NCBI GenBank assembly: GCA_030536575.1
Contig: JAUNPS010000003.1
Coordinates: forward strand, 113,400-177,399
Source of the DNA: Eubacteriales bacterium
GTDB taxonomy: Bacteria > Bacillota > Clostridia > Lachnospirales > Lachnospiraceae
Length of the DNA: 64,000 nt
Direction of reading: 5' to 3'
In this document: positions 9,942 to 47,948 of the stretch, in pieces
How positions within the stretch are numbered: position 1 is the stretch's first letter
How the letters are laid out: every line of letters begins with the position of its first letter
Position numbers and translations under genes: made by a program
Notes under the pieces: model-generated
What the model was told of the DNA's origin: nothing
Database searches by the model: none
Seen by the model: only the letters and a program-made list of their open reading frames with translations

Positions 9942-11149
9942 CGGAAGGAAAACATGTATTTATCATTGGCTCCAAAGGAATTCCCGCCCAGTACGGAGGA
10001 TTTGAGACTTTTGTGGAGGAGCTGGTAAGGCGCAGGCAGTCAGAAAAGATCTGTTATCATGTGGCATGCGCGACGGACAAATGGAAGCGGGGAGAAGTGC
10101 ATACCTTTTCCTGCCATGGCGTGGAGTGCTTCGAGATTCCCAGATGGCCCATCGGCGCGGGAAAAGCGGTGCTCTATGATGTGGATGCCCTGCGCTACTG
10201 TGTCCGCTATATCCGGGAAAAGAAGATCCAAAACGCGGTGGTCTATGTTCTGGCGTGCCGGATCGGGCTTTTTATCGGTTATTTTAAACGGCAGATTCAG
10301 GCTCTTGGCGGGAAGCTTCTGGTGAATCCGGACGGCCATGAGTGGGAACGTGCGAAATGGAATTCCCTCATCAAAGAATACTGGAAATTTTCCGAAGCGC
10401 GGATGGTCCGGCGTGCCGACCTGGTCATCTGTGACAGCAAAAACATTGAAGCCTACATCGAAGAGCATTACCGCCGATACCGTCCCAAAACGGTGTTTAT
10501 CCCTTACGGCGCCGATATCCGCCGGGAAGAGAAAGACGGAGACGGGGTCATGGACAGGGCGGAAAAGTGGTTTCAGAAATGGAAGCTAAAACCTGGAGAA
10601 TATTATCTGATCGTCGGGCGGTTCGTGCCTGAGAATAATTACGAGACGATCTTACGGGAATTTATGGCGAGCAAGACGAAAAAGAAGCTGGCCGTAATCA
10701 CAAACATGCGGGACGATGCCTTTTGTACGAACCTGAAAAACCAGACGCATTTCGAAGAGGATAAGCGCATCTGCTTTACCGGGACGGTTTACGACCCGGA
10801 GCTGCTGGCTGTCATCCGCAGGCAGGCGTTTGCGTACCTGCATGGCCATGAAGTGGGCGGGACGAATCCCAGCCTGCTGGAAGCCATGGGAATGACAAAG
10901 CTGAACCTGCTCTACGACGTCTGCTTTAACAGGGAAGTGGGCCAGGACGCAGTGTTCTACTGGACAAAAGAAAAGGGAAGCCTGCGCAGGCTGATCGCTT
11001 CCGCAGAAAAGCTGTCTGAGCAGGAAATCCAGGAGAAAGGCGAACAAGCGAAAAAAACGATCGAAGAACGGTATCAGTGGTCAGATGTGGTAAAAGAATA
11101 CGAAGAAATTTTCTTAAACAGCGAAGCGTGGAAAACGTGCGGGAAATAG
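9938..11149 (+). CDS. GT4/DUF1972 glycosyltransferase, rhamnosyltransferase-like
   Basis: 403 residues. The N-terminus HVFIIGSKGIPAQYGGFETF is the DUF1972 domain of Cps2T/RgpA-type enzymes, which add rhamnose during capsule or rhamnan synthesis. The C-terminal GT-B half contains YYLIVGRFVPENNYE and a nucleotide-binding region HEVGGTNPSLLEAMG. It is the last gene of the polysaccharide operon; its stop codon lies in the loop of a terminator. The rhamnose donor assignment is family-based inference. Confidence 0.85.
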   Translation: MTEGKHVFIIGSKGIPAQYGGFETFVEELVRRRQSEKICYHVACATDKWKRGEVHTFSCHGVECFEIPRWPIGAGKAVLYDVDALRYCVRYIREKKIQNAVVYVLACRIGLFIGYFKRQIQALGGKLLVNPDGHEWERAKWNSLIKEYWKFSEARMVRRADLVICDSKNIEAYIEEHYRRYRPKTVFIPYGADIRREEKDGDGVMDRAEKWFQKWKLKPGEYYLIVGRFVPENNYETILREFMASKTKKKLAVITNMRDDAFCTNLKNQTHFEEDKRICFTGTVYDPELLAVIRRQAFAYLHGHEVGGTNPSLLEAMGMTKLNLLYDVCFNREVGQDAVFYWTKEKGSLRRLIASAEKLSEQEIQEKGEQAKKTIEERYQWSDVVKEYEEIFLNSEAWKTCGK

Positions 11150-11164
11150 TCCTGCACGTTTTTT
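11134..11164 (+). terminator. Terminator of the polysaccharide operon
   Basis: The arms AACGTGCGGG and CCTGCACGTT pair around a loop that contains the stop codon of the preceding gene, followed by TTTT. The hut promoter element begins inside the T-run. Confidence 0.8.
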
Positions 11165-11195
11165 GACGTTTTTTTGACAACTGGTATGGTATAAC
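11163..11195 (+). promoter_or_regulatory. hut-type promoter with double TTGAC repeat
   Basis: TTGACG (11163-11168) and TTGACA (11174-11179) are direct repeats with an 11-bp period, followed after 10 bp by TATAAC (11190-11195) preceded by TG one base away. Neither repeat has the 16-18 bp spacing of a normal -35 box. The same 17-bp arrangement, differing at two bases, precedes hutH at 46337. This resembles activator sites overlapping the -35 region, as bound by SARP proteins. Confidence 0.6.
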
Positions 11196-11229: not shown

Positions 11230-13251
11230 ATGAACAATTTCGAAATCGGCCAGTCCATGACCATCAAACTCGACCCCATCCTGCCGGAATACCCCGTATT
11301 CCAGCCAGGAATCCGCCGCGCCCCCAAACGGGAACTGACCTTAAACCAGCGGGAAATCAAGCTGGCCCTAAAAAACGCCCTCCGCTACGTGCCGGAGGAG
11401 CTCCACGAACAGCTCGCGCCGGAATTCCTGGACGAACTGCTGACCAGAGGCCGCATTTACGGCTACCGCTTCATGCCAAAAGAGCGCATTTACGGGAAAC
11501 CCATCGAAGAATATAAAGGAAACTGCATTGAAGGGAAGGCATTCCAGGTCATGATCGACAATAACCTGGATCACGAAGTCGCGCTGTACCCCTATGAGCT
11601 GGTTACTTACGGGGAAACCGGCCAGGTGTGCCAGAACTGGATGCAGTACCAACTGATCAAAAAATATCTGGAACAGCTCACCGATGAGCAGACCCTCGTC
11701 ATGATGTCCGGCCATCCCATGGGCCTGTTCAAATCCCACAAGACCAGCCCCCGCGTCGTGATCACCAACGGCCTGATGGTCGGCATGTTTGACAATCCCC
11801 ACGACTGGGCGAAAGCCACCGCCATGGGCTGCTCCTCCTACGGCCAGATGACCGCGGGCGGCTGGATGTACATTGGCCCCCAGGGCATTGTCCACGGCAC
11901 CTTTAACACGATCCTGAACGCAGGCCGCTTAAAGCTTGGTATTCCGGAGCACGGCGACCTGGCGGGGCACCTGTTCGTGACGTCGGGCCTTGGCGGGATG
12001 AGCGGGGCGCAGCCAAAAGCGGTGGAAATCGCCAACGGCGTCGGCATTATCGCGGAGGTGGACGCCTCCCGGATCGAGACCCGGCACAGCCAGGGATGGG
12101 TATCGAAGGTGACGGACAGCATGGAGGAGGCCTTTGCCTGGGCGAAGGAATATCAGGAAAAGAAGGAACGGATTTCCATTGCGTATCATGGAAATATCGT
12201 GGATTTGCTCCAGTATGCGGTGGACAAGGAAATCAAGATCGACCTGCTTTCCGACCAGACCTCCTGTCATGTGCCCTATGACGGCGGCTATTGCCCCCAG
12301 GGACTGACTTTTGAACAGCGCACGGAAATGCTGGCAAAGGACAAAGAAACCTTCTGCGAACTGGTCAATGCGTCGCTGGTGAAGCACTTCCATCTGATTA
12401 AGACGCTGACCGAGCGGGGAACGTATTTCTTCGACTATGGAAATTCGTTTATGAAGGCGGTGTTCGACGCGGGCGCGAAAGAAATTGCGAAAAACGGCGT
12501 GGATACCAGCGAAGGTTTTATTTTCCCGTCTTATGTGGAGGATATTCTGGGGCCGGAGCTGTTTGATTATGGATACGGGCCGTTCCGCTGGTGCTGCCTG
12601 AGCGGAAAGCCGGAGGACCTGCGAAAGACGGACGAGGCGGCGATGAGCTGCATCGACCCGAACCGGAGAGGGCAGGATCGGGATAATTACATCTGGATTC
12701 GGGACGCCGAGAAGAACAAGCTGGTCGTGGGTACACAGTGCCGGATTCTGTATCAGGATGCCCTTGGACGGCGGAACATTGCCCTGAAATTTAATGAGAT
12801 GGTGCGAAACGGGGAGATCGGCCCGGTGATGCTGGGGCGCGACCACCACGACACGGGCGGGACGGATTCCCCCTATCGGGAAACATCGAATATTTATGAC
12901 GGAAGCAATATCACCGCGGATATGGCCGTGCAATGCTACGCGGGCAACGCAGCCAGAGGCATGAGCCTGGTAGCCCTCCACAACGGCGGCGGCGTCGGGA
13001 TCAGCAAAGCGATCAACGGCGGCTTCGGCATGGTGCTGGACGGCAGCGAACGGGTGGACGAAATCCTGATGGCAGCCATGCCGTGGGATACGATGATCGG
13101 CGTGGCAAGACGGAGCTGGGGCAGATGCGAGCATTCCATCGAGACGGTTGCGGAATATAACCAGATGCGCGGCGGAAGCGACCACATCACGATGCCCTAT
13201 CTGGCCAGCGAGGAACTGATCGAACGGGTTTGTAAGGATGTGAAAGGATGA
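11230..13251 (+). CDS. hutU: Urocanate hydratase
   Basis: 673 residues. Second step of histidine degradation: urocanate to 4-imidazolone-5-propionate, using tightly bound NAD+. Family signatures include MMSGHPMGLFKSHKTSPRVV, VTSGLGGMSGAQPKA, and GRDHHDTGGTDSPYRE near the C-terminus. It is about 120 residues longer than the Bacillus enzyme, as in the long clostridial form. An AAAGGAG site precedes ATG 11230. It overlaps hutI by 4 bp. hutH, which makes the substrate, is 33 kb away. Confidence 0.97.
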   Translation: MNNFEIGQSMTIKLDPILPEYPVFQPGIRRAPKRELTLNQREIKLALKNALRYVPEELHEQLAPEFLDELLTRGRIYGYRFMPKERIYGKPIEEYKGNCIEGKAFQVMIDNNLDHEVALYPYELVTYGETGQVCQNWMQYQLIKKYLEQLTDEQTLVMMSGHPMGLFKSHKTSPRVVITNGLMVGMFDNPHDWAKATAMGCSSYGQMTAGGWMYIGPQGIVHGTFNTILNAGRLKLGIPEHGDLAGHLFVTSGLGGMSGAQPKAVEIANGVGIIAEVDASRIETRHSQGWVSKVTDSMEEAFAWAKEYQEKKERISIAYHGNIVDLLQYAVDKEIKIDLLSDQTSCHVPYDGGYCPQGLTFEQRTEMLAKDKETFCELVNASLVKHFHLIKTLTERGTYFFDYGNSFMKAVFDAGAKEIAKNGVDTSEGFIFPSYVEDILGPELFDYGYGPFRWCCLSGKPEDLRKTDEAAMSCIDPNRRGQDRDNYIWIRDAEKNKLVVGTQCRILYQDALGRRNIALKFNEMVRNGEIGPVMLGRDHHDTGGTDSPYRETSNIYDGSNITADMAVQCYAGNAARGMSLVALHNGGGVGISKAINGGFGMVLDGSERVDEILMAAMPWDTMIGVARRSWGRCEHSIETVAEYNQMRGGSDHITMPYLASEELIERVCKDVKG

Positions 13252-14495
13252 AGAAACGGTTGATCTGCCATGCGGCGGAGCTGGTGACCTGTAAGGGAAA
13301 AGGGCCGAAGCATGGGAAGGATATGGCAAAGATTGGGCTGATTAAAGACGGGGCGCTGCTGATCGAAGGCGAGCGAATCGCCGATGTGGGAACCACGGCG
13401 GAGCTTCTGCAAAGGGTGGATTTGGCCAAGTGCGAGGTGCTGGACGCTTCCGGGAAAGCGGTTCTGCCGGGATTTGTGGACAGTCATACGCATTTCCTGT
13501 TTGGCGGTTACCGGGCGGAGGAATTCTCCTGGCGGCTGAAAGGGGATACTTATCTGTCCATCATGGAGCGGGGCGGCGGGATTCATGCGACCGTCTCCGC
13601 CACCAGGGCGGCCACTGAGGAGGAGCTGATGGAATCCGGGCTGGAGCGCCTGAAAACCATGCTGGAGTTTGGCGTCACCACCGTGGAAGGGAAAAGCGGC
13701 TACGGACTGGACAAGGAGACGGAGCTTCGGATGCTGCGCGCAATGAAAAAGCTGGAGCCAATGCAGCCGGTGGAGATTGCCGCAACATTTTTAGGGCCTC
13801 ACAGCGTCCCCGCGGAGTACAAAGGACGCGAGCGGGAATTCCTGGACGAAATGCTGGAACAGGTCATGCCGGTGGTGCGGGCGGAAGAGCTTGCGGACTT
13901 CGCGGACATTTTTACGGAAAAAGGCGTCTTCGGCATCGAGGATTCGGAATATTATCTGAACCGGGCGAAGGAAATGGGCTTTGGGCTGAAAATCCACGCG
14001 GATGAAATGGTGACTCTTGGCGGCGCGGAGCTGGCGGCCAGAGTGGGAGCCGTGTCTGCGGATCATCTGCTGAAGGCTTCGGATGCGGGGATCCTGGAGC
14101 TGGCGAAGAGCGGCGTAGTGAGTACGCTGCTTCCGGCGACGGCGTTTTGCCTGGGAGAGCCTTATGCGAGGGGACGGCAGATGATTGACGCGGGGTGTGC
14201 GGTGGCGCTGGCGTCGGATTTGAATCCGGGGAGCTGTTTTACGAATTCGATTCCGCTTTTGATCGCGCTGGCGTGCATTTATATGAAGCTTTCGGTGGAG
14301 GAAGCGGTGACGGCGCTGACGATCAACGGGGCGGCGGCCATCGGGCGCGCCGACCGGATCGGAAGCCTGGAAATCGGAAAACAGGCGGATGTATTGATCC
14401 TGAAATATCCGTCGATTCAGTATCTGCCGTACCACACCGGGATGAACCTGGTGGAAAAAGTCATCAAAAAAGGAGAAATTGTCCTGGAAAGGTAG
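13248..14495 (+). CDS. hutI: Imidazolonepropionase
   Basis: 415 residues of the amidohydrolase superfamily. It hydrolyses imidazolonepropionate to N-formimino-L-glutamate. The metal-binding DSHTHFLFGG is visible with His80 and His82, and KIHADEMVTLGGAELAARVG provides further metal and substrate residues. Translation is coupled to hutU by an ATGA overlap; ftcD follows after 7 bp. Confidence 0.97.
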   Translation: MKKRLICHAAELVTCKGKGPKHGKDMAKIGLIKDGALLIEGERIADVGTTAELLQRVDLAKCEVLDASGKAVLPGFVDSHTHFLFGGYRAEEFSWRLKGDTYLSIMERGGGIHATVSATRAATEEELMESGLERLKTMLEFGVTTVEGKSGYGLDKETELRMLRAMKKLEPMQPVEIAATFLGPHSVPAEYKGREREFLDEMLEQVMPVVRAEELADFADIFTEKGVFGIEDSEYYLNRAKEMGFGLKIHADEMVTLGGAELAARVGAVSADHLLKASDAGILELAKSGVVSTLLPATAFCLGEPYARGRQMIDAGCAVALASDLNPGSCFTNSIPLLIALACIYMKLSVEEAVTALTINGAAAIGRADRIGSLEIGKQADVLILKYPSIQYLPYHTGMNLVEKVIKKGEIVLER

Positions 14496-14502
14496 GAGAA
14501 AA

Positions 14503-15393
14503 ATGGAAAGAATCATCGAGTGTGTCCCGAATTTCAGCGAGGGACGGGATCTGGAGAAAGTGGAGAAAATCGTGGACTGCTTCCGCGGGAAGAAGGGCGT
14601 AAAGCTGCTGGATTATACGTCGGATGAAGACCATAACCGAAGCGTCGTGACGGTGATCGGGGAGCCGGAGCCGCTGGTGGAGGCCATGGTGGCAGCCATC
14701 GGGAAGGCCGTGGAGCTGATCGATATGACGAAGCATCAGGGGCAGCATCCGCGGATGGGCTGCGTGGACGTCGTACCGTTTATACCGATTAAGGGCGTGA
14801 CGGTGGAGGACGCGGATCATTGCGCGAAGGAGACGGCGCGGATGGCGGCGGAGAAATTCGGCCAGCCCTTTATCCTGTACGAGAAATCGGCCACGGCGCC
14901 CCACCGGGAGAACCTGGCCGCGGTGCGCAAAGGGCAGTTCGAGGGTATGGCGGAAAAGCTGAAAGACCCGAAGTGGAAGCCGGATTTCGGGCCGGAGACG
15001 ATTCATCCTACGGGCGGGATTACGGCGATTGGGGCCAGAATGCCGTTAATTGCTTACAACATTAATCTGGATACCTCCAATGTGGAGATCGCGCAGAAGA
15101 TTGCAGACCGCATCCGGAATATTAAAGGCGGCTTCCATTTCTGCAAGGCCATGGGTGTGATGCTGGAAGACCGCCAGATCGCGCAGGTGTCTATGAATCT
15201 GACGGACTATACGAAGACCGCGGTTTATACGGTTTTTGAGACGGTGCGGATGGAAGCCAGACGCTGGGGGGTCAATGTAATCGGGAGCGAAGTGGTCGGG
15301 CTGATTCCGCTTCAGGCCCTCGTAGATTGTACGGAATATTATCTGGGGCTGGAGAATTTCAGCATTGACCAGGTTTTGGAAACGCGTTTGTAG
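14503..15393 (+). CDS. ftcD: Glutamate formimidoyltransferase
   Basis: 296 residues. Transfers the formimino group of formiminoglutamate to tetrahydrofolate, releasing glutamate. The start RIIECVPNFSEGRD and the TSDEDHNRSVVTVIG and MTKHQGQHPRMGCVDVVPF segments are diagnostic of the formiminotransferase domain. ATG 14503 is chosen because AGGAG lies 8 bp upstream. In animals this is one half of a bifunctional enzyme; here the cyclodeaminase is the separate next gene. Confidence 0.96.
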   Translation: MERIIECVPNFSEGRDLEKVEKIVDCFRGKKGVKLLDYTSDEDHNRSVVTVIGEPEPLVEAMVAAIGKAVELIDMTKHQGQHPRMGCVDVVPFIPIKGVTVEDADHCAKETARMAAEKFGQPFILYEKSATAPHRENLAAVRKGQFEGMAEKLKDPKWKPDFGPETIHPTGGITAIGARMPLIAYNINLDTSNVEIAQKIADRIRNIKGGFHFCKAMGVMLEDRQIAQVSMNLTDYTKTAVYTVFETVRMEARRWGVNVIGSEVVGLIPLQALVDCTEYYLGLENFSIDQVLETRL

Positions 15394-15405: not shown

Positions 15406-16026
15406 ATGAAAGAGATGAGCTTGGAAGCCTTTGCGGCGCAGACGGCGTCGAAGGAGCCGGTGCCTGGGGGCGGGAGCATTTCCGCCCTGGCGGGAGCGCT
15501 GGCGGCGGCCCTGACGGAGATGGTGGCGGGGCTGACCGTCGGAAAGAAGAAGTACGCGGAAGTGGAAGCGGAAATGCAGGCGGCGATTCCGGTGATGCGC
15601 CGGGTGCGGGAACAGCTTCTGGTGGATATCCGGCGGGACAGCGAGTCCTTTGACCAGTATATGCAGGCGCTTTCGCTTCCGAAGGAGACGGAAGAGGAGA
15701 AGGCGGCGCGGACGCAGGCAATGCAGGACGGGCTGAAGGCCGCGGTGGCGGTGCCGCTTTCGGTGGCGCGGGAGGCCCTTGGAATTCTGCCCTATGCCCA
15801 GGTGATGGTGACAAAAGGGAATGCGTCGGCGGTGACGGACGGGCTGGTGGCGGCGATGATGGCGCGGACGGCGGTGCTGGGGGCACTGTATAACGTGAAG
15901 ATCAACCTGGGGTCAATCCGGGATGAGGAATTTGTGGCGGAGACGATGAAGCGCGTGCGGGAGATGGAAGCGGAGGCGGTGCGGCTGGAAAGCGGGATCC
16001 TTGAGAATGCGCCGGTGATGCGCTGA
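15406..16026 (+). CDS. fchA: Formiminotetrahydrofolate cyclodeaminase/methenyl-THF cyclohydrolase
   Basis: 206 residues of the FTCD_C family. It completes histidine degradation by converting formimino-THF to methenyl-THF plus ammonia. PVPGGGSISALAGALAAALT near residue 20 and the alanine-rich helical pattern with NASAVTDGLVAAMMARTAV are typical. An AGGAGG site lies upstream of ATG 15406. It is the last gene of the hutU operon; no terminator is obvious, and decayed sequence follows directly. Confidence 0.93.
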   Translation: MKEMSLEAFAAQTASKEPVPGGGSISALAGALAAALTEMVAGLTVGKKKYAEVEAEMQAAIPVMRRVREQLLVDIRRDSESFDQYMQALSLPKETEEEKAARTQAMQDGLKAAVAVPLSVAREALGILPYAQVMVTKGNASAVTDGLVAAMMARTAVLGALYNVKINLGSIRDEEFVAETMKRVREMEAEAVRLESGILENAPVMR

Positions 16027-43664: not shown

Positions 43665-44651
43665 ATGAAAAACCTGATCGAAGATCTGAAAAATCAAACG
43701 CTGAAAAATGTTTACCTGCTTTACGGCGAAGAAGCCTATTTAAAGCAGCTTTATAAGAAGAAACTGATGGAAGCCGTCCTGCCGGAAGGGGATACGATGA
43801 ATCTGACCATTTACGAGGGGAAGGGCATTGATCCGAAAGAGGTGATCGGGCAGGCTGAGACGATGCCTTTTTTTGCCGACCACAGGCTGGTTCTCTTGGA
43901 AAACAGCGGCTTTTGTAAGAATGCCGCGCCGGAGCTGGCCGACTACGTTCCCAAGCTTCCGCCGGAGACGGTTTTGGTGCTCGTGGAAGAGGAGGTAGAT
44001 AAGCGCAGCCGCCTTTACAAGGCTATCCAGAAGAAAGGCCGCGTCGTCGAATTTGCCAGACAGGACGAGCGGACGCTGACCCGCTGGATTTTAGGAAGTG
44101 TGAAAAAAGAGCAGAAGCAGATTACCGAGGGCGCGATGCAGCTTTTTCTGGAAAAGGCCGGAAACGACATGGGAAATATCCAGAAGGAGCTGGAAAAGCT
44201 TTTTTGTTATACCTATGAGAAGAAAGAAATTACCGCTTCCGACGTGGAGGCTATCTGCACGACCCAGACCACGAATAAAATTTTCGAAATGATCAGCGCG
44301 GTGGCGGAGAAGAAGCAGAAGCGGGCTTTGGAGCTTTATTATGACCTGCTGGCTTTGAAGGAGCCGCCGATGCGGATTCTGTTTTTGATTGCCAGGCAGT
44401 TTAACCAGCTCTTACAGGTGAAAGAGATGAAGAGCCATGGGTACGATGCGGGCGGGATTGCGAGCCGGTTGGGAATCGCGCCGTTCATTGTCAAAAATGC
44501 CCTGCGCCAGTCGAATTATTTTTCGCTGGAAGACCTGGAAGCAGGGGTGCGGGAGTGCGTGGAGCTGGAAGAAGCGGTGAAAACGGGACGGATGAACGAT
44601 CAGATGAGCGTGGAGCTTTTGTTGGTGCAGCTGAGCAGTAAGGTAAAATGA
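43665..44651 (+). CDS. holA: DNA polymerase III delta subunit
   Basis: 328 residues. The clamp-loader delta subunit opens the sliding clamp. LKNVYLLYGEEAYLKQLYKK, MPFFADHRLVLLENSGF and LEKAGNDMGNIQKELEKL are typical of the Gram-positive family. It overlaps the SARP-like regulator gene by 4 bp. In Bacillus holA is followed by rpsT; here two genes intervene. Confidence 0.92.
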   Translation: MKNLIEDLKNQTLKNVYLLYGEEAYLKQLYKKKLMEAVLPEGDTMNLTIYEGKGIDPKEVIGQAETMPFFADHRLVLLENSGFCKNAAPELADYVPKLPPETVLVLVEEEVDKRSRLYKAIQKKGRVVEFARQDERTLTRWILGSVKKEQKQITEGAMQLFLEKAGNDMGNIQKELEKLFCYTYEKKEITASDVEAICTTQTTNKIFEMISAVAEKKQKRALELYYDLLALKEPPMRILFLIARQFNQLLQVKEMKSHGYDAGGIASRLGIAPFIVKNALRQSNYFSLEDLEAGVRECVELEEAVKTGRMNDQMSVELLLVQLSSKVK

Positions 44652-46351
44652 TGGGAAATTTGAAGGTACATTTACTGGGAAATCCTTATGCGGAAGAAGA
44701 CGGCAGGCAGATCCGTTTTCCTTATCGGAAGGCGGAGGGGCTGTTTTACTACCTGTGCGTCCAAAAGAGCGCTTCCAGGGAGGAGCTTGCGGAGACGTTC
44801 TGGGGGGACGAGCCGGAGGCGGCTGCCCGGAAAAGCCTGCGGGAGGCCATGTACCAGTTAAAAAAGGCTCTTGGAGAAGACATTTTTGAGACGAAGGGAC
44901 ATACGCTGGTTTCCCTGAATGCGGCGAGAATGGAGCGGACGGATCTGGAGGCGCTGGAAGACGGTGTGCTGGAAAGCAGGGAGACGGAATTTCTGGAGCA
45001 TTTCCATATCAAAGGAAGCTATGAATTTGACCAATGGGCTTCCCAGATGCGGGAAACCTGCGGCCGTCTGGTACGCAGGGCGGCGCGTCAGTGCCTGTAT
45101 CAGGCGGATGCGGCGCTGGATTTGGAGGGAATCGAACAGTATGCCGCGATTCTGATGAAGAATGATCCCTACAGTGAGAAATTGCATTATGAAATTATGG
45201 ACATCTATGCGGTGCACGGGTGTTATCATCAGGCGGTGCAGGTTTACCAGGCATTGGAGAAAGTCCTGTGGGAGGATCTGGATGTAAAGCCCTGCCGGGA
45301 GGTGTCGCGGCTTTATCAGCGTGTGAAGCGTTTGGAGGAGCACGTTTCGTTTGAAATGCCGGGAAAGGAGAACGGTTTTTTCGGGAGAACGGAGGAACTT
45401 TATCAGATCAGCGCATTTCTGGCGGACGGAAAGGGGAAGGTGCTGGCGATCGGCGGGGAGATGGGCGTTGGAAAGAGCCGGCTGCTGGCGAAGGCCTGTG
45501 AGCTGGCGGAGGGCTATCGGATGCTGCCGGTTTTCCAGGGCTGTTACCCGGAGGATCGGGACGAGGCGCTGGTTCCGTGGAAGGAAATTTTCTTTAAACT
45601 GGAAGAAAAGGGCTTTGAGACGGAAAAATGTCCGTCAGAGGAGGACAAGCTGCTGGCGCTGTTCCGGAAGATTACCCGTGAACAGACGGTGGTGCTGTTT
45701 TTGGACGATGTCCAGCATATGGATGGGGAGAGCTTTCGGATTCTGAACCGGGTTCTGCGGGTGGCTGCGCCCGGAGGATTGTATGTGTGCATGACGTTTG
45801 CGCGGGAGTTTGAGAGTGAGCTTCTGGAGGTCATGGATTCCGCGGTGCGAAATGATTGGATGGAACTGCTCTGGCTGGAGTGCCTGGAGGAAAAGGCCGC
45901 GGCGGAGCTGGTTCGTTCGTTGGTCAGGGAGGGAGAAGGGCCGGAGAACCTTCCGGCATTGCTTTATGAATTCACGGATGGAAACGTCTTTTTCCTGACG
46001 GAGGCGGTTCGGCAGCTTCAGAAAGAGGGGGATCCGTTCCGGCTGTCCAGGAAGGCGTCCTGTGCGCTGAAAGCCAGCCTTGCGGGGATGACGGAAAAGG
46101 AACGGCGTCTGTTGGATGCGCTGGCTTTTCTGCCGGGGCCCGGAAAATTTCAGGAGCTTGGGAGGCTGACGGGGATGGATTACCGAGAGCTGGCAGAGGT
46201 TCTGGAAAAGCTGTCCGTGCGGGGGATCTGCGGGGAGGAACGCCGGGAGGACGGGGTTTTTTATACGTTTACCCGGAACATTGTGCGGGAATATGTGCGC
46301 CAGAGTCAGACGGAAGGGAAAAAAGAGGCGTTTCTCTTGACGAATTTTTGA
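44648..46351 (+). CDS. SARP/BTAD transcriptional regulator with AAA ATPase domain
   Basis: 567 residues. N-terminal OmpR-like winged helix (~1-95: KVHLLGNPYAEEDGRQIRFP, SLREAMYQLKKAL), a BTAD helical domain (~96-235: YQALEKVLWEDLDVKPCREV), then a STAND/AAA module with Walker A GGEMGVGKSRLL (Lys276) and Walker B VVLFLDDVQHMD (Asp353). Helical sequence continues to the stop without the long TPR tail of large AfsR proteins. The hutH promoter begins inside its last codons. SARP proteins activate promoters with 11-bp-spaced direct repeats, which occur here before hutH and hutU, so this is a strong candidate hut activator. Confidence 0.85.
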   Translation: MMGNLKVHLLGNPYAEEDGRQIRFPYRKAEGLFYYLCVQKSASREELAETFWGDEPEAAARKSLREAMYQLKKALGEDIFETKGHTLVSLNAARMERTDLEALEDGVLESRETEFLEHFHIKGSYEFDQWASQMRETCGRLVRRAARQCLYQADAALDLEGIEQYAAILMKNDPYSEKLHYEIMDIYAVHGCYHQAVQVYQALEKVLWEDLDVKPCREVSRLYQRVKRLEEHVSFEMPGKENGFFGRTEELYQISAFLADGKGKVLAIGGEMGVGKSRLLAKACELAEGYRMLPVFQGCYPEDRDEALVPWKEIFFKLEEKGFETEKCPSEEDKLLALFRKITREQTVVLFLDDVQHMDGESFRILNRVLRVAAPGGLYVCMTFAREFESELLEVMDSAVRNDWMELLWLECLEEKAAAELVRSLVREGEGPENLPALLYEFTDGNVFFLTEAVRQLQKEGDPFRLSRKASCALKASLAGMTEKERRLLDALAFLPGPGKFQELGRLTGMDYRELAEVLEKLSVRGICGEERREDGVFYTFTRNIVREYVRQSQTEGKKEAFLLTNF

Positions 46352-46368
46352 CAGTCCGAAGTTATACT
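46337..46368 (+). promoter_or_regulatory. hut-type promoter with double TTGAC repeat before hutH
   Basis: TTGACG (46337-46342) and TTGACA (46348-46353), 11 bp apart, then TATACT (46363-46368) after 9 bp. The 17-bp double element matches the one before hutU at 15 of 17 positions. It overlaps the end of the regulator gene. Confidence 0.65.
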
Positions 46369-46424: not shown

Positions 46425-47948
46425 ATGAAAACGATTGCGATTACCGGAAATGATTTGACGTTGGAGGAACTGGTGCAGATTTGCCGTTTTGGGGCGAAGA
46501 TTTACCTGACGGAAGAGGCGAAGGAGCGGATTTTGGAGTCCCGGAAAGTTGTGGAGGATCTGGTTGCGAAGGATAAGGTGGTTTACGGCGTGACCACGGG
46601 CTTTGGAAAGTTCAGCGACACGATCATTACGACGGATGAATGCCGCACCCTTCAGCGGAATCTGATTATTTCCCATGCGGTGGGAGCTGGCGAGCCTTTT
46701 TCCAAAGAGGTGTCCAGAGGGATCATGCTGCTGCGGGTGAATAACCTGGCGAAGGGCTATTCGGGCGCGCAGCTTTCGACGGCGCAGACATTGGTGGAGA
46801 TGCTGAACAGGGAAGTGACGCCGGTGATTCCGCAGAAGGGGTCTTTGGGGGCCAGCGGGGATCTGGTTCCGCTGGCGCATATGGTGCTGCCGATGCTGGG
46901 CCTTGGGATGGCCGAGTATCAGGGCGAGACGCTTAACGGGCAGGAGGCTATGGAGCGGGCCGGGATTCCGGTGATCGAGCTGTCCGCGAAGGAAGGGCTG
47001 GCGCTGATTAACGGGACGCCGGCGATGACGGCGGTGGGGGCGCTGACGGTGTACGATGCCCTGGAGCTGCTGAAGACGGCGGATATTGCGGTGGCAATGA
47101 GCTATGAGGCGCAGAACGGCGTGGTGGACGCGCTGGATGCGCGGATTCATCAGGTGCGGCCCCATAAGGGACAGATGGAGTCGGCGGAGGTGATCAGGCG
47201 GCTGATTGCGGGGAGTAAGAATGTGACGCGCCAGGGTGAGCTGCGGGTGCAGGATGCGTATTCGCTGCGGTGTGCGCCGCAGGTGCACGGGGCCAGCCGG
47301 GATGCGGTGAACTATGTGAAGGAGCAGGTGGAGATCGAGCTGAATTCGGTGACGGATAACCCGATTCTTTTTAAGGAGACGGATGAGGGGATCTCCGGGG
47401 GGAATTTTCATGGGCAGCCGATGGCGCTGAGTTTTGATTTTTTGGGGATTGCGCTGTCGGAGATTGCGGATATTTCGGAGAGGCGGATCGAGCGGATGGT
47501 GAATTCGGCTCTGAGCGGGCTGCCGACGTTTTTGACGGAAAAGGGGGGCGTGAATTCGGGATTTATGATCGTGCAGTATACGGCGGCGGCGCTGGTTTCG
47601 GAGAATAAGGTGCTGGCGCATCCGGCGAGTGTGGATAGTATTCCGTCGTCGGCGAATCAGGAGGATCATGTGAGTATGGGGACGATTGCGGCCAGGAAGG
47701 CGCGGGAGATTATGGAGAATGTGCGAAGGGTGTTGGCGATGGAGCTGATGTGCGCGTGCCAGGCGATTGATTTGAGAGGGGATAAAGGGCTTGGTATGGG
47801 GACGGCGAAGGCTTATGAAGCGGTGAGGGAGAAGGTGGAGCGGCTGGGGGATGACAGGCCGTTGTATCCGGATATTAATTGTTGTGAGGAGATTTTGATT
47901 GATGGGTCGTTGGTGAGACGTGTGGAGGAGGCGGTGGGGCTGCTGTAG
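46425..47948 (+). CDS. hutH: Histidine ammonia-lyase
   Basis: 507 residues. Removes ammonia from L-histidine to give urocanate, the first step of histidine degradation. YGVTTGFGKFSDTII, the MIO cofactor tripeptide Ala143-Ser144-Gly145 in GASGDLVPLAHM, QDAYSLRCAPQVHGASRD and SVDSIPSSANQEDHVSMG are all present. ATG 46425 follows AAGGAGG. It is separated by 30 kb from hutU-hutI-ftcD-fchA, and placed between holA and rpsT. Confidence 0.97.
   Translation: MKTIAITGNDLTLEELVQICRFGAKIYLTEEAKERILESRKVVEDLVAKDKVVYGVTTGFGKFSDTIITTDECRTLQRNLIISHAVGAGEPFSKEVSRGIMLLRVNNLAKGYSGAQLSTAQTLVEMLNREVTPVIPQKGSLGASGDLVPLAHMVLPMLGLGMAEYQGETLNGQEAMERAGIPVIELSAKEGLALINGTPAMTAVGALTVYDALELLKTADIAVAMSYEAQNGVVDALDARIHQVRPHKGQMESAEVIRRLIAGSKNVTRQGELRVQDAYSLRCAPQVHGASRDAVNYVKEQVEIELNSVTDNPILFKETDEGISGGNFHGQPMALSFDFLGIALSEIADISERRIERMVNSALSGLPTFLTEKGGVNSGFMIVQYTAAALVSENKVLAHPASVDSIPSSANQEDHVSMGTIAARKAREIMENVRRVLAMELMCACQAIDLRGDKGLGMGTAKAYEAVREKVERLGDDRPLYPDINCCEEILIDGSLVRRVEEAVGLL

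Follow-up and report, generated by a model that had tools for sequence, protein, structure and literature searches.

The window examined here, a stretch of 64,000 nucleotides from Eubacteriales bacterium (Lachnospiraceae; assembly GCA_030536575.1, contig JAUNPS010000003.1, positions 113,400 to 177,399), carries the genes of histidine utilization (hut) in two places about 35 kb apart, with a gene for a large SARP-type regulator directly upstream of hutH and a near-identical double TTGAC element in the promoters of both hutU and hutH. The features concerned are the following:

11163..11179, + strand: predicted SARP-type operator of hutU, with repeats TTGACG (11163-11168) and TTGACA (11174-11179), read from the sequence; the same element stands at hutU of relatives
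11190..11195, + strand: -10 hexamer of hutU, TATAAC, 10 bp past the second repeat, read from the sequence
11230..13251, + strand: hutU, urocanate hydratase (TIGR01228, 446 bits)
13248..14495, + strand: hutI, imidazolonepropionase, downstream of hutU (TIGR01224)
14479..15393, + strand: ftcD, glutamate formimidoyltransferase (TIGR02024)
15406..16026, + strand: fchA-like gene, formiminotransferase-cyclodeaminase family protein (PF04961; the NCBIfam FchA model stays below its cut-off)
44648..46351, + strand: gene for the large SARP regulator, 567 aa (Pfam BTAD and AAA_16; alignment to relatives of about 950 aa)
46337..46353, + strand: predicted SARP-type operator of hutH, with repeats TTGACG (46337-46342) and TTGACA (46348-46353), read from the sequence; kept at hutH of relatives with an adjacent SARP
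46363..46368, + strand: -10 hexamer of hutH, TATACT, 9 bp past the second hexamer repeat and 8 bp past the heptamer
46425..47948, + strand: hutH, histidine ammonia-lyase (TIGR01225, 676 bits), its start set by alignment with relatives, the longest open reading frame (ORF) running from 46407

The sequence-only reading of this DNA had pointed to a double TTGAC element before hutU and hutH that ends 9–10 bp before the -10, and both sites agree with it exactly: hutU carries TTGACG-TTTTT-TTGACA, 10 bp, and TATAAC, and hutH carries TTGACG-AATTT-TTGACA, 9 bp, and TATACT, the repeat period being 11 bp in each. The gene identities proposed in that reading for hutU, hutH, and the BTAD-AAA_16 protein are borne out by the models listed above, as is the overlap of the regulator gene with the hutH element—that is, the last SARP codons run through the element, with the stop codon TGA (46349-46351) lying inside the second repeat. 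Its further claim, that neither promoter has a properly spaced -35, stands at hutH, where no sigma-70 promoter or recognisable -35 was found; hutU also has an alternative sigma-70-like reading (TTGACG-16-TATGGT, 9/12, with TG before the -10). The canonical sigma-A arrangement, TTGACA 16–18 bp from TATAAT, is present at neither promoter, the 9/12 alternative being confined to hutU.

In the assembly as a whole (4,810,403 bases in 100 contigs, 90.7% complete), the exact pattern TTGACG-N5-TTGACA was found twice, at precisely the hutU and hutH sites, and its reversed control once; nothing else in the 4.81 Mb matched exactly. With up to two mismatches allowed, 182 matches were found versus 380 for the reversed control, and since loose matches are thus rarer than the control, only the close form of the element is informative. 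A chance origin of the elements was rejected on the uniqueness of the exact pattern, the shuffle counts, and the period test described below. The strongest argument against chance is the conservation of the element in other genera.

This conservation was followed by a scan with the SARP alignment across 84,980 species, each represented by a single genome, in which the best 80 of 140 SARP relatives were merged into 78 loci (loci are given below as L numbers and genomes as G numbers). Hut-pathway genes lie within the 10-kb flanks of 62 of the 78 loci; five of the remainder contain only a lyase homologue of less than 50% identity, and 11 contain none, some of these being short contigs. The SARP-hut loci include those of Blautia, Enterocloster, [Clostridium] symbiosum, [C.] aminophilum, Cuneatibacter, Lutispora, Tepidibacter, Alkaliphilus, Anaerovirgula, Natroniella, several Clostridium species, and Oscillospiraceae metagenome-assembled genomes. 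Within the family, the element occurs at the hutH and hutU promoters of G019, G028, G072, and G136 and at hutU of G026. A matrix built from 11 sites in six genomes gave a score of at least 18 for 50 of 72 held-out hutH/hutU upstream regions, compared with 20/578 other ORFs and 1/365 dinucleotide shuffles. The held-out test omits L077, L093, L094, and L102 (genomes used in training) and keeps close relatives such as L099; its counts exclude the L131 hutU region, from which five of the 365 shuffles were derived.

The same picture was obtained without the matrix. Two GACs with an 11-bp period were found in 50 of 66 deduplicated hut upstream regions, as against 0–8 for the other periods from 5 to 27, and the spacing of -10-like hexamers from the second GAC peaks at 10–11 bp (47 counts), no such hexamer lying at 16–19. 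Among the 45 deduplicated held-out sites scoring at least 18, the second hexamer is separated from the -10 by 9 bp in 29 and by 10 bp in 16 (8–11 being allowed), which corresponds to 8 or 9 bp counted from the heptamer, and TATAAT is the commonest -10 (29/45). The consensus of the element is about TWGACG-YTTTT-TWGAC[GAT].

At least one hutH or hutU site scoring 16 or more is present in 47 of the 55 testable loci. Of the held-out hutH genes with at least 65% identity (n = 24, all in SARP loci), 21 score at least 24.3 and the other three score 18.2, 16.0, and -2.1, the lowest value belonging to the second member of a tandem. Beyond this group, the element often stands at a different gene of the cluster instead (hutU, fhs, or ftcD). 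The held-out rows below 16 number 17 in all, comprising hutH of L108, L122, L131, L133, L134, L136, L137, L139, L143 (second of the tandem), L151 (15.98), and L154, and hutU of L112, L117, L120, L125, L134, and L149. Many of these loci have a site elsewhere: at hutH in L117 and L120; at hutU in L133, L136, L137, L139, and L154; at ftcD in L134; at the first hutH in L143; and before an fhs-like ORF ahead of hutU in L125 and L149.

The element is also coupled to the regulator gene. In an order-wide sample, hutH was found in 45 of 392 genomes, and 30 loci of the 46 matches were used to compare hutH with and without an adjacent SARP, adjacency being judged within about 1.5 kb. The element was present in 7/7 loci with an adjacent SARP (score at least 29.0) and in 0/23 without one (highest score 11.7). 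Two of the seven, the window and G028, belong to the training set, and without the two training genomes the count is 5/5; all seven are from the window's family and the 23 negatives are from other families. Within the family, hutU was found in 10 of 200 genomes, with all six SARP-positive genomes among these, among the matches listed. The other four (G048, G105, G165, and G170, the last only 79% complete) have hutU and no close SARP, and no site scoring at least 15 was found in the 54 kb around their hut genes; a BTAD search at E 0.001 gave no match in three of them, the exception being G048. In G048, hutH and its divergently oriented neighbor hutU are separated by about 290 bp, at the place occupied by the SARP in several relatives. 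Two other genomes of the window's genus yielded neither a SARP match nor hutU and are therefore uninformative on this coupling.

Finally, a strict pattern (GACGNNTTTNNGAC, a gap, and TANNNT) was run in 19 SARP-bearing genomes, and 25 of its 29 matches fall at hutH or hutU—16 of 17 with a gap of 8–9 and 9 of 12 with a gap of 10. The element was therefore largely found at hut promoters rather than at many unrelated ones, the latter being an outcome that the sequence-only reading had named as contrary to its proposal. The four matches off hut (L156, L193, L195, and L199) may be due to chance or mark regulon members; that of L193 lies 63 bp before the gene of a 338-aa protein with no Pfam or NCBIfam match, and that of L195 lies 339 bp before a zinc alcohol dehydrogenase ORF.

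The 567-aa regulator of the window, whose start codon overlaps the holA stop, consists of an N-terminal DNA-binding region (placed by alignment to AfsR-type SARPs), BTAD, and a STAND/AAA ATPase. The NCBIfam AfsR model gives 27.8 bits with it, far below the cut-off. Relatives were found in five other genomes among the 200 of the family: one of these, in G026, is matched by its ATPase part only, and the four remaining are proteins of about 950 aa with BTAD and AAA_16 (STAND-type), with TPR models in 3/4. PF03704 (BTAD) is above its cut-off in the window protein and these four relatives. By alignment, the window protein lacks the TPR part and ends where it would begin in the longer relatives. The combination of a STAND ATPase with TPR is thus seen in the long relatives and in part, as an ATPase without a TPR model, in the window copy and three other short ones. 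Short BTAD-AAA_16 copies without TPR also stand beside hutH elsewhere (659 aa in L138, 659 aa in L143, and 643 aa in L151); the TPR-less form is therefore not unique to the window's genome. The ORF is open, the DNA-binding residues W52, R65, K72, and K73 are intact, and so is the Walker A motif as judged by eye. The protein lies on a long branch of the tree (1.49), that is, it is fast-evolving. Its reading frame extends into the hutH operator, where the second repeat supplies the stop codon; the arrangement resembles what a deletion of the TPR part as far as the promoter would leave behind.

The N-terminal region aligns with AfsR across W74–K95, no match to it was obtained with the OmpR-type DNA-binding model in Pfam, and the solved structures matched by the SARPs include AfsR (8k60, 8jke, 8hvr) and EmbR. 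In 80 aligned SARPs, the residues by which AfsR contacts the DNA backbone are kept, with W74 being W in 79/80, R87 being R in 79/80 (the 80th row is gapped), R94 being K/R in 78/80, and K95 being K/R in 74/80. The hutH promoters of L107, L124, and L140 carry a variant, TCGAC..TCGAC, and the SARP of these loci has H at the position of AfsR R92, a possible change of code.

According to parts of PMC10936776, the direct repeats in SARP targets are spaced by 11 or 22 bp, and the 3' repeat lies 8 bp from the -10; on the afs box, two adjacent SARP protomers occupy one repeat each and overlap the -35. The hut promoters show the same layout, with an 11-bp period and, in the gap-9 class, a 3' heptamer 8 bp from the -10; when the hutH hexamer is taken as -12 to -7, the first Ts of the repeats fall at -38 and -27, the T positions contacted by AfsR (PMC10936776). 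In addition, AfsR of Streptomyces coelicolor, with its afs box at afsS, is comparable with the regulator described here—hereafter Hut-SARP—in having a SARP domain followed by a STAND ATPase and TPR, two 11-bp direct repeats over the -35 region, a distance of 8 bp between the 3' repeat and the -10, and conserved W74, R87, R94, and K95 (PMC10936776). Unlike AfsR, Hut-SARP is clostridial and linked to amino-acid catabolism, not to antibiotic genes; its repeat is TWGACG and its -10 consensus-like, whereas the afsS -35 overlapping the upstream repeat is TTCAGC (PMC10936776). Overall similarity to AfsR is low (phmmer 15–19 bits), and T88 and R92 are replaced by D/N/E/H/Q and mostly Q/K, respectively. 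MalT of E. coli is likewise a STAND activator with a TPR-type sensor, although it has a LuxR-type DNA-binding domain and different sites. MalT, which is named in PMC10936776, resembles Hut-SARP in the expected logic, in which an activator of a catabolic operon combines an ATPase switch with a sensor domain.

Together, the site, its conservation and spacing, its bias toward hut promoters, and its co-occurrence with the adjacent regulator gene suggest, with a probability of roughly 85%, that the element is a SARP operator through which Hut-SARP would activate histidine catabolism via sigma-A polymerase. The match to the operator layout of AfsR is consistent with an AfsR-like STAND-SARP acting on hut. 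The SARP-controlled hut regulon that the sequence-only reading had proposed for Clostridia thus gains support from conservation, coupling, and specificity, and reaches beyond the window's genome. In the predicted mechanism, two protomers of the neighboring SARP, a protein composed of a winged-helix DNA-binding region, BTAD, a STAND ATPase, and usually TPR, would bind side by side on the two 11-bp direct repeats. The repeats would stand in for the -35 hexamer, and the SARP would recruit sigma-A RNA polymerase to the TATAAT-like -10 located 9–10 bp downstream; without a recognisable -35 at hutH, and with the AfsR-like layout, such SARP-dependent recruitment is the simplest mechanism. Hut-SARP would thereby switch on hutH and hutU-hutI-ftcD-fchA and, in other clostridia, also fhs, ftcD, histidine-racemase-like, and transporter genes. 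If it works like AfsR and MalT, the activator would be kept inactive by its STAND-TPR half and be freed by ATP together with a pathway signal; this signal may be histidine, urocanate, or low glutamate, to judge from expression in O. symbiosa (PMC13320830, in part). The window regulator, having no TPR, may work independently of that sensor. The SARP domain of AfsR is inhibited by the NOD and TPR parts (PMC10936776, in part), and a guess from this analogy is that the TPR-less window copy could be less restrained.

Several findings weigh against this interpretation. The regulator named in the sequence-only reading is encoded as a BTAD-AAA SARP, but the window copy is short, without the TPR of the ~950-aa relatives, and long-branched, so its own activity is less certain; a second SARP of about 1000 aa in the same genome, C97 (G000:C97), might act instead. 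In the aligned SARPs, the base-contacting T88 and R92 of AfsR are not kept, position 88 being D/N/E/H/Q and position 92 mostly Q/K (49/80). Replacement of these two residues with retention of the backbone contacts would fit a SARP with a changed target sequence; T88, not R92, is counted among the residues conserved across Streptomyces SARPs in parts of PMC10936776. G026 keeps five elements together with a SARP-like ORF that has no DNA-binding part. Conversely, G048, whose hut promoters have no site, encodes a 419-aa SARP-like protein with 20–29% identity to SARP N-termini, and 'SARP-less' there therefore means merely that no close relative is present. Loss of the element from hut genes where the regulator is kept had also been named in the sequence-only reading as evidence against the proposal; this is not seen in the 21 of 24 close hutH genes scoring at least 24.3, but in L108, L112, L122, and L131, where a SARP and hut genes are both present, the hut genes tested have no good site. 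The raw counts of the strict pattern are near those of the reversed control (17 vs 15 for gap 8–9; 12 vs 8 for gap 10), so that the counts say little and the location of the matches is telling. Furthermore, 14 of the 19 SARP genomes have a strict match and five (G026 and G211-G214) do not, their sites either departing from the strict pattern or being lacking.

Some of these findings could be accommodated by other explanations. The retention of sites in G026, next to a SARP-like ORF without its DNA-binding part, would fit a site bound by another OmpR-type regulator (a PhoP/PhoB- or WalR-like response regulator), with the SARP gene as a mere neighbor. Such regulators likewise use 11-bp direct repeats near the -35, and PhoB/PhoP boxes, too, have direct repeats of about 11 bp shortly before the -10. 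This is improbable, however, in view of the tracking of the site with the adjacent SARP gene (7/7 vs 0/23), the concentration of strict matches at hut (25/29 genome-wide), the lack of a site at the hut loci of the four relatives without a close SARP, and the related but different repeat, TCAACG..TAAACG, of a paralogous SARP clade. Still less credible, and indeed very improbable, is a pair of ordinary, regulator-free sigma-A promoters with a duplicated -35: the hutU promoter can be read in this way (TTGACG-16-TATGGT with TG), but hutH has no sigma-70 promoter, the distance from the second GAC to the -10-like hexamers peaks at 10–11 bp and is never 16–19 bp, TAGAC, GGAC, and similar repeats make poor -35s, and the element is absent at hutH genes without an adjacent SARP.

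A less remote, though doubtful, explanation is that the shortened SARP of the window is a dying remnant and C97 now runs the hut promoters. The loss of TPR from the 567-aa copy, its long branch, and the location of C97 relatives beside hutU in L072, L135, L148, and L152 would be in keeping with it. Against it stand the open frame and intact DNA-binding and Walker A residues of the window copy, the similarly TPR-less proteins beside hutH in L138, L143, and L151, the different element that the C97 clade has of its own in L148 and L152, and the absence of any hut gene from the 18 kb around the C97 SARP (locus L071). In the tree, C97 clades with the SARPs of L072, L135, L148 (position 2115, + strand), and L152 (position 2047, + strand). 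L148 and L152 carry the repeat TCAACGTTTTTTAAACG, 9 bp before TATACT and upstream of a 154-aa ORF; its form, TCAACG..TAAACG, is related to but unlike TWGACG. The pairing of a separate SARP clade with a separate repeat argues in favor of SARPs reading these sites, although members of the C97 clade also occur beside hutU in L072, L135, L148, and L152, and the hutU site there has the TWGACG form. The Pfam content of these clusters comprises 2Fe-2S, FAD, and molybdopterin subunits (L148), an aromatic amino-acid lyase (L152), and BCCT transporters (both), which we take to be, perhaps, an ergothioneine-type pathway. The SARP-like ORF of G026 (L073/L074; L074:7656-9737, - strand) adjoins a 3' remnant of hutU.

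Outside Lachnospiraceae, the SARP loci have further sites before genes fitting histidine fermentation. The element was found before methylaspartate mutase S at L139, before a gene for a Na+/H+-antiporter-family protein at L115, and before BCCT transporter genes (checked at L114; similar at L118, L125, and L141). Genes for formate-tetrahydrofolate ligase with the element were observed at L105:8047-9726 (NCBIfam-checked) and, by N-terminal likeness, at L110, L111, L116, L125, and L149; the element at these genes would link one-carbon disposal to histidine fermentation. The hut clusters of Clostridium also contain histidine-racemase-like (CntK/HisR-like) genes, each with two SARP-type elements upstream:

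L133:13601-14425: histidine-racemase-like gene, checked, below the model cut-offs
L136:15028-15828: histidine-racemase-like gene, checked, below the model cut-offs
L137 and L154: similar genes

Control of hut genes in other bacteria involves proteins unrelated to SARPs. HutP is an RNA antiterminator regulating hut operons, and HutC is a GntR repressor of hut operons (parts of PMC12772324); both control hut, as Hut-SARP would. No known leader RNA was found in the window (0 Rfam matches at gathering score; the HutP site itself was not searched for), and an RNA-controlled hut leader, HutP-type or riboswitch, was rejected on this result. Among the matches listed in the open-access literature, no report of a SARP controlling hut was found; the kind of regulator is known, and its lineage, pathway link, operator code, and regulon are without description among those matches. 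A June 2026 preprint (PMC13320830) describes, in parts, the fermentation of histidine via the Hut pathway by gut Otoolea and Blautia, the competition of this pathway with imidazole propionate production, and high hutHUI transcription on histidine, shut down by glutamate, in O. symbiosa. The word SARP is absent from its main text, and no regulator is named in its parts on hut transcription. The oxidative pathway of Otoolea symbiosa and Blautia coccoides described there uses the same hut genes, in the same genera, as the Hut-SARP loci: regulator and operator are present in the Otoolea/Blautia loci L084, L088, and L100, the last from [Clostridium] symbiosum (placed in Otoolea), with SARP, hutU, hutI, hutH, and both elements. 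The conserved switch is thus a candidate for the as yet unnamed means by which gut bacteria control histidine use, and the presence of regulator and operator in the same gut genera makes this control step directly testable.

A wider interpretation, advanced tentatively and as a whole held to be somewhat less than an even chance, is that large STAND-SARPs form a group of catabolic activators across Clostridia in which every clade has an 11-bp-repeat code of its own. TWGACG would then stand for histidine (hut, fhs, histidine-racemase-like, and glutamate mutase genes), TCGAC for some Oscillospiraceae-type clusters, and TCAACG..TAAACG for clusters of molybdenum hydroxylase, aromatic-lyase homologue, and BCCT genes, possibly for ergothioneine-type betaines, and the antibiotic SARPs of Streptomyces would form a single branch within an older family of metabolic sensors. 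If so, histidine and glutamate would act through Hut-SARP as the switch that sets histidine use in the gut, and hence imidazole propionate.

Two minor observations concern the hutU promoter and locus L092. A terminator-like hairpin precedes hutU:

11129..11165, + strand: terminator-like hairpin belonging to the glycosyltransferase gene upstream, with a T-run that overlaps the hutU operator

This T-run may double as part of the terminator and part of the operator. In L092 (Fusobacterium naviforme ATCC 25832), the SARP nests among those of Lachnospiraceae in the tree and the order of the hut cluster is the same; the genus name of the record may be outdated, or the genes may have been transferred.

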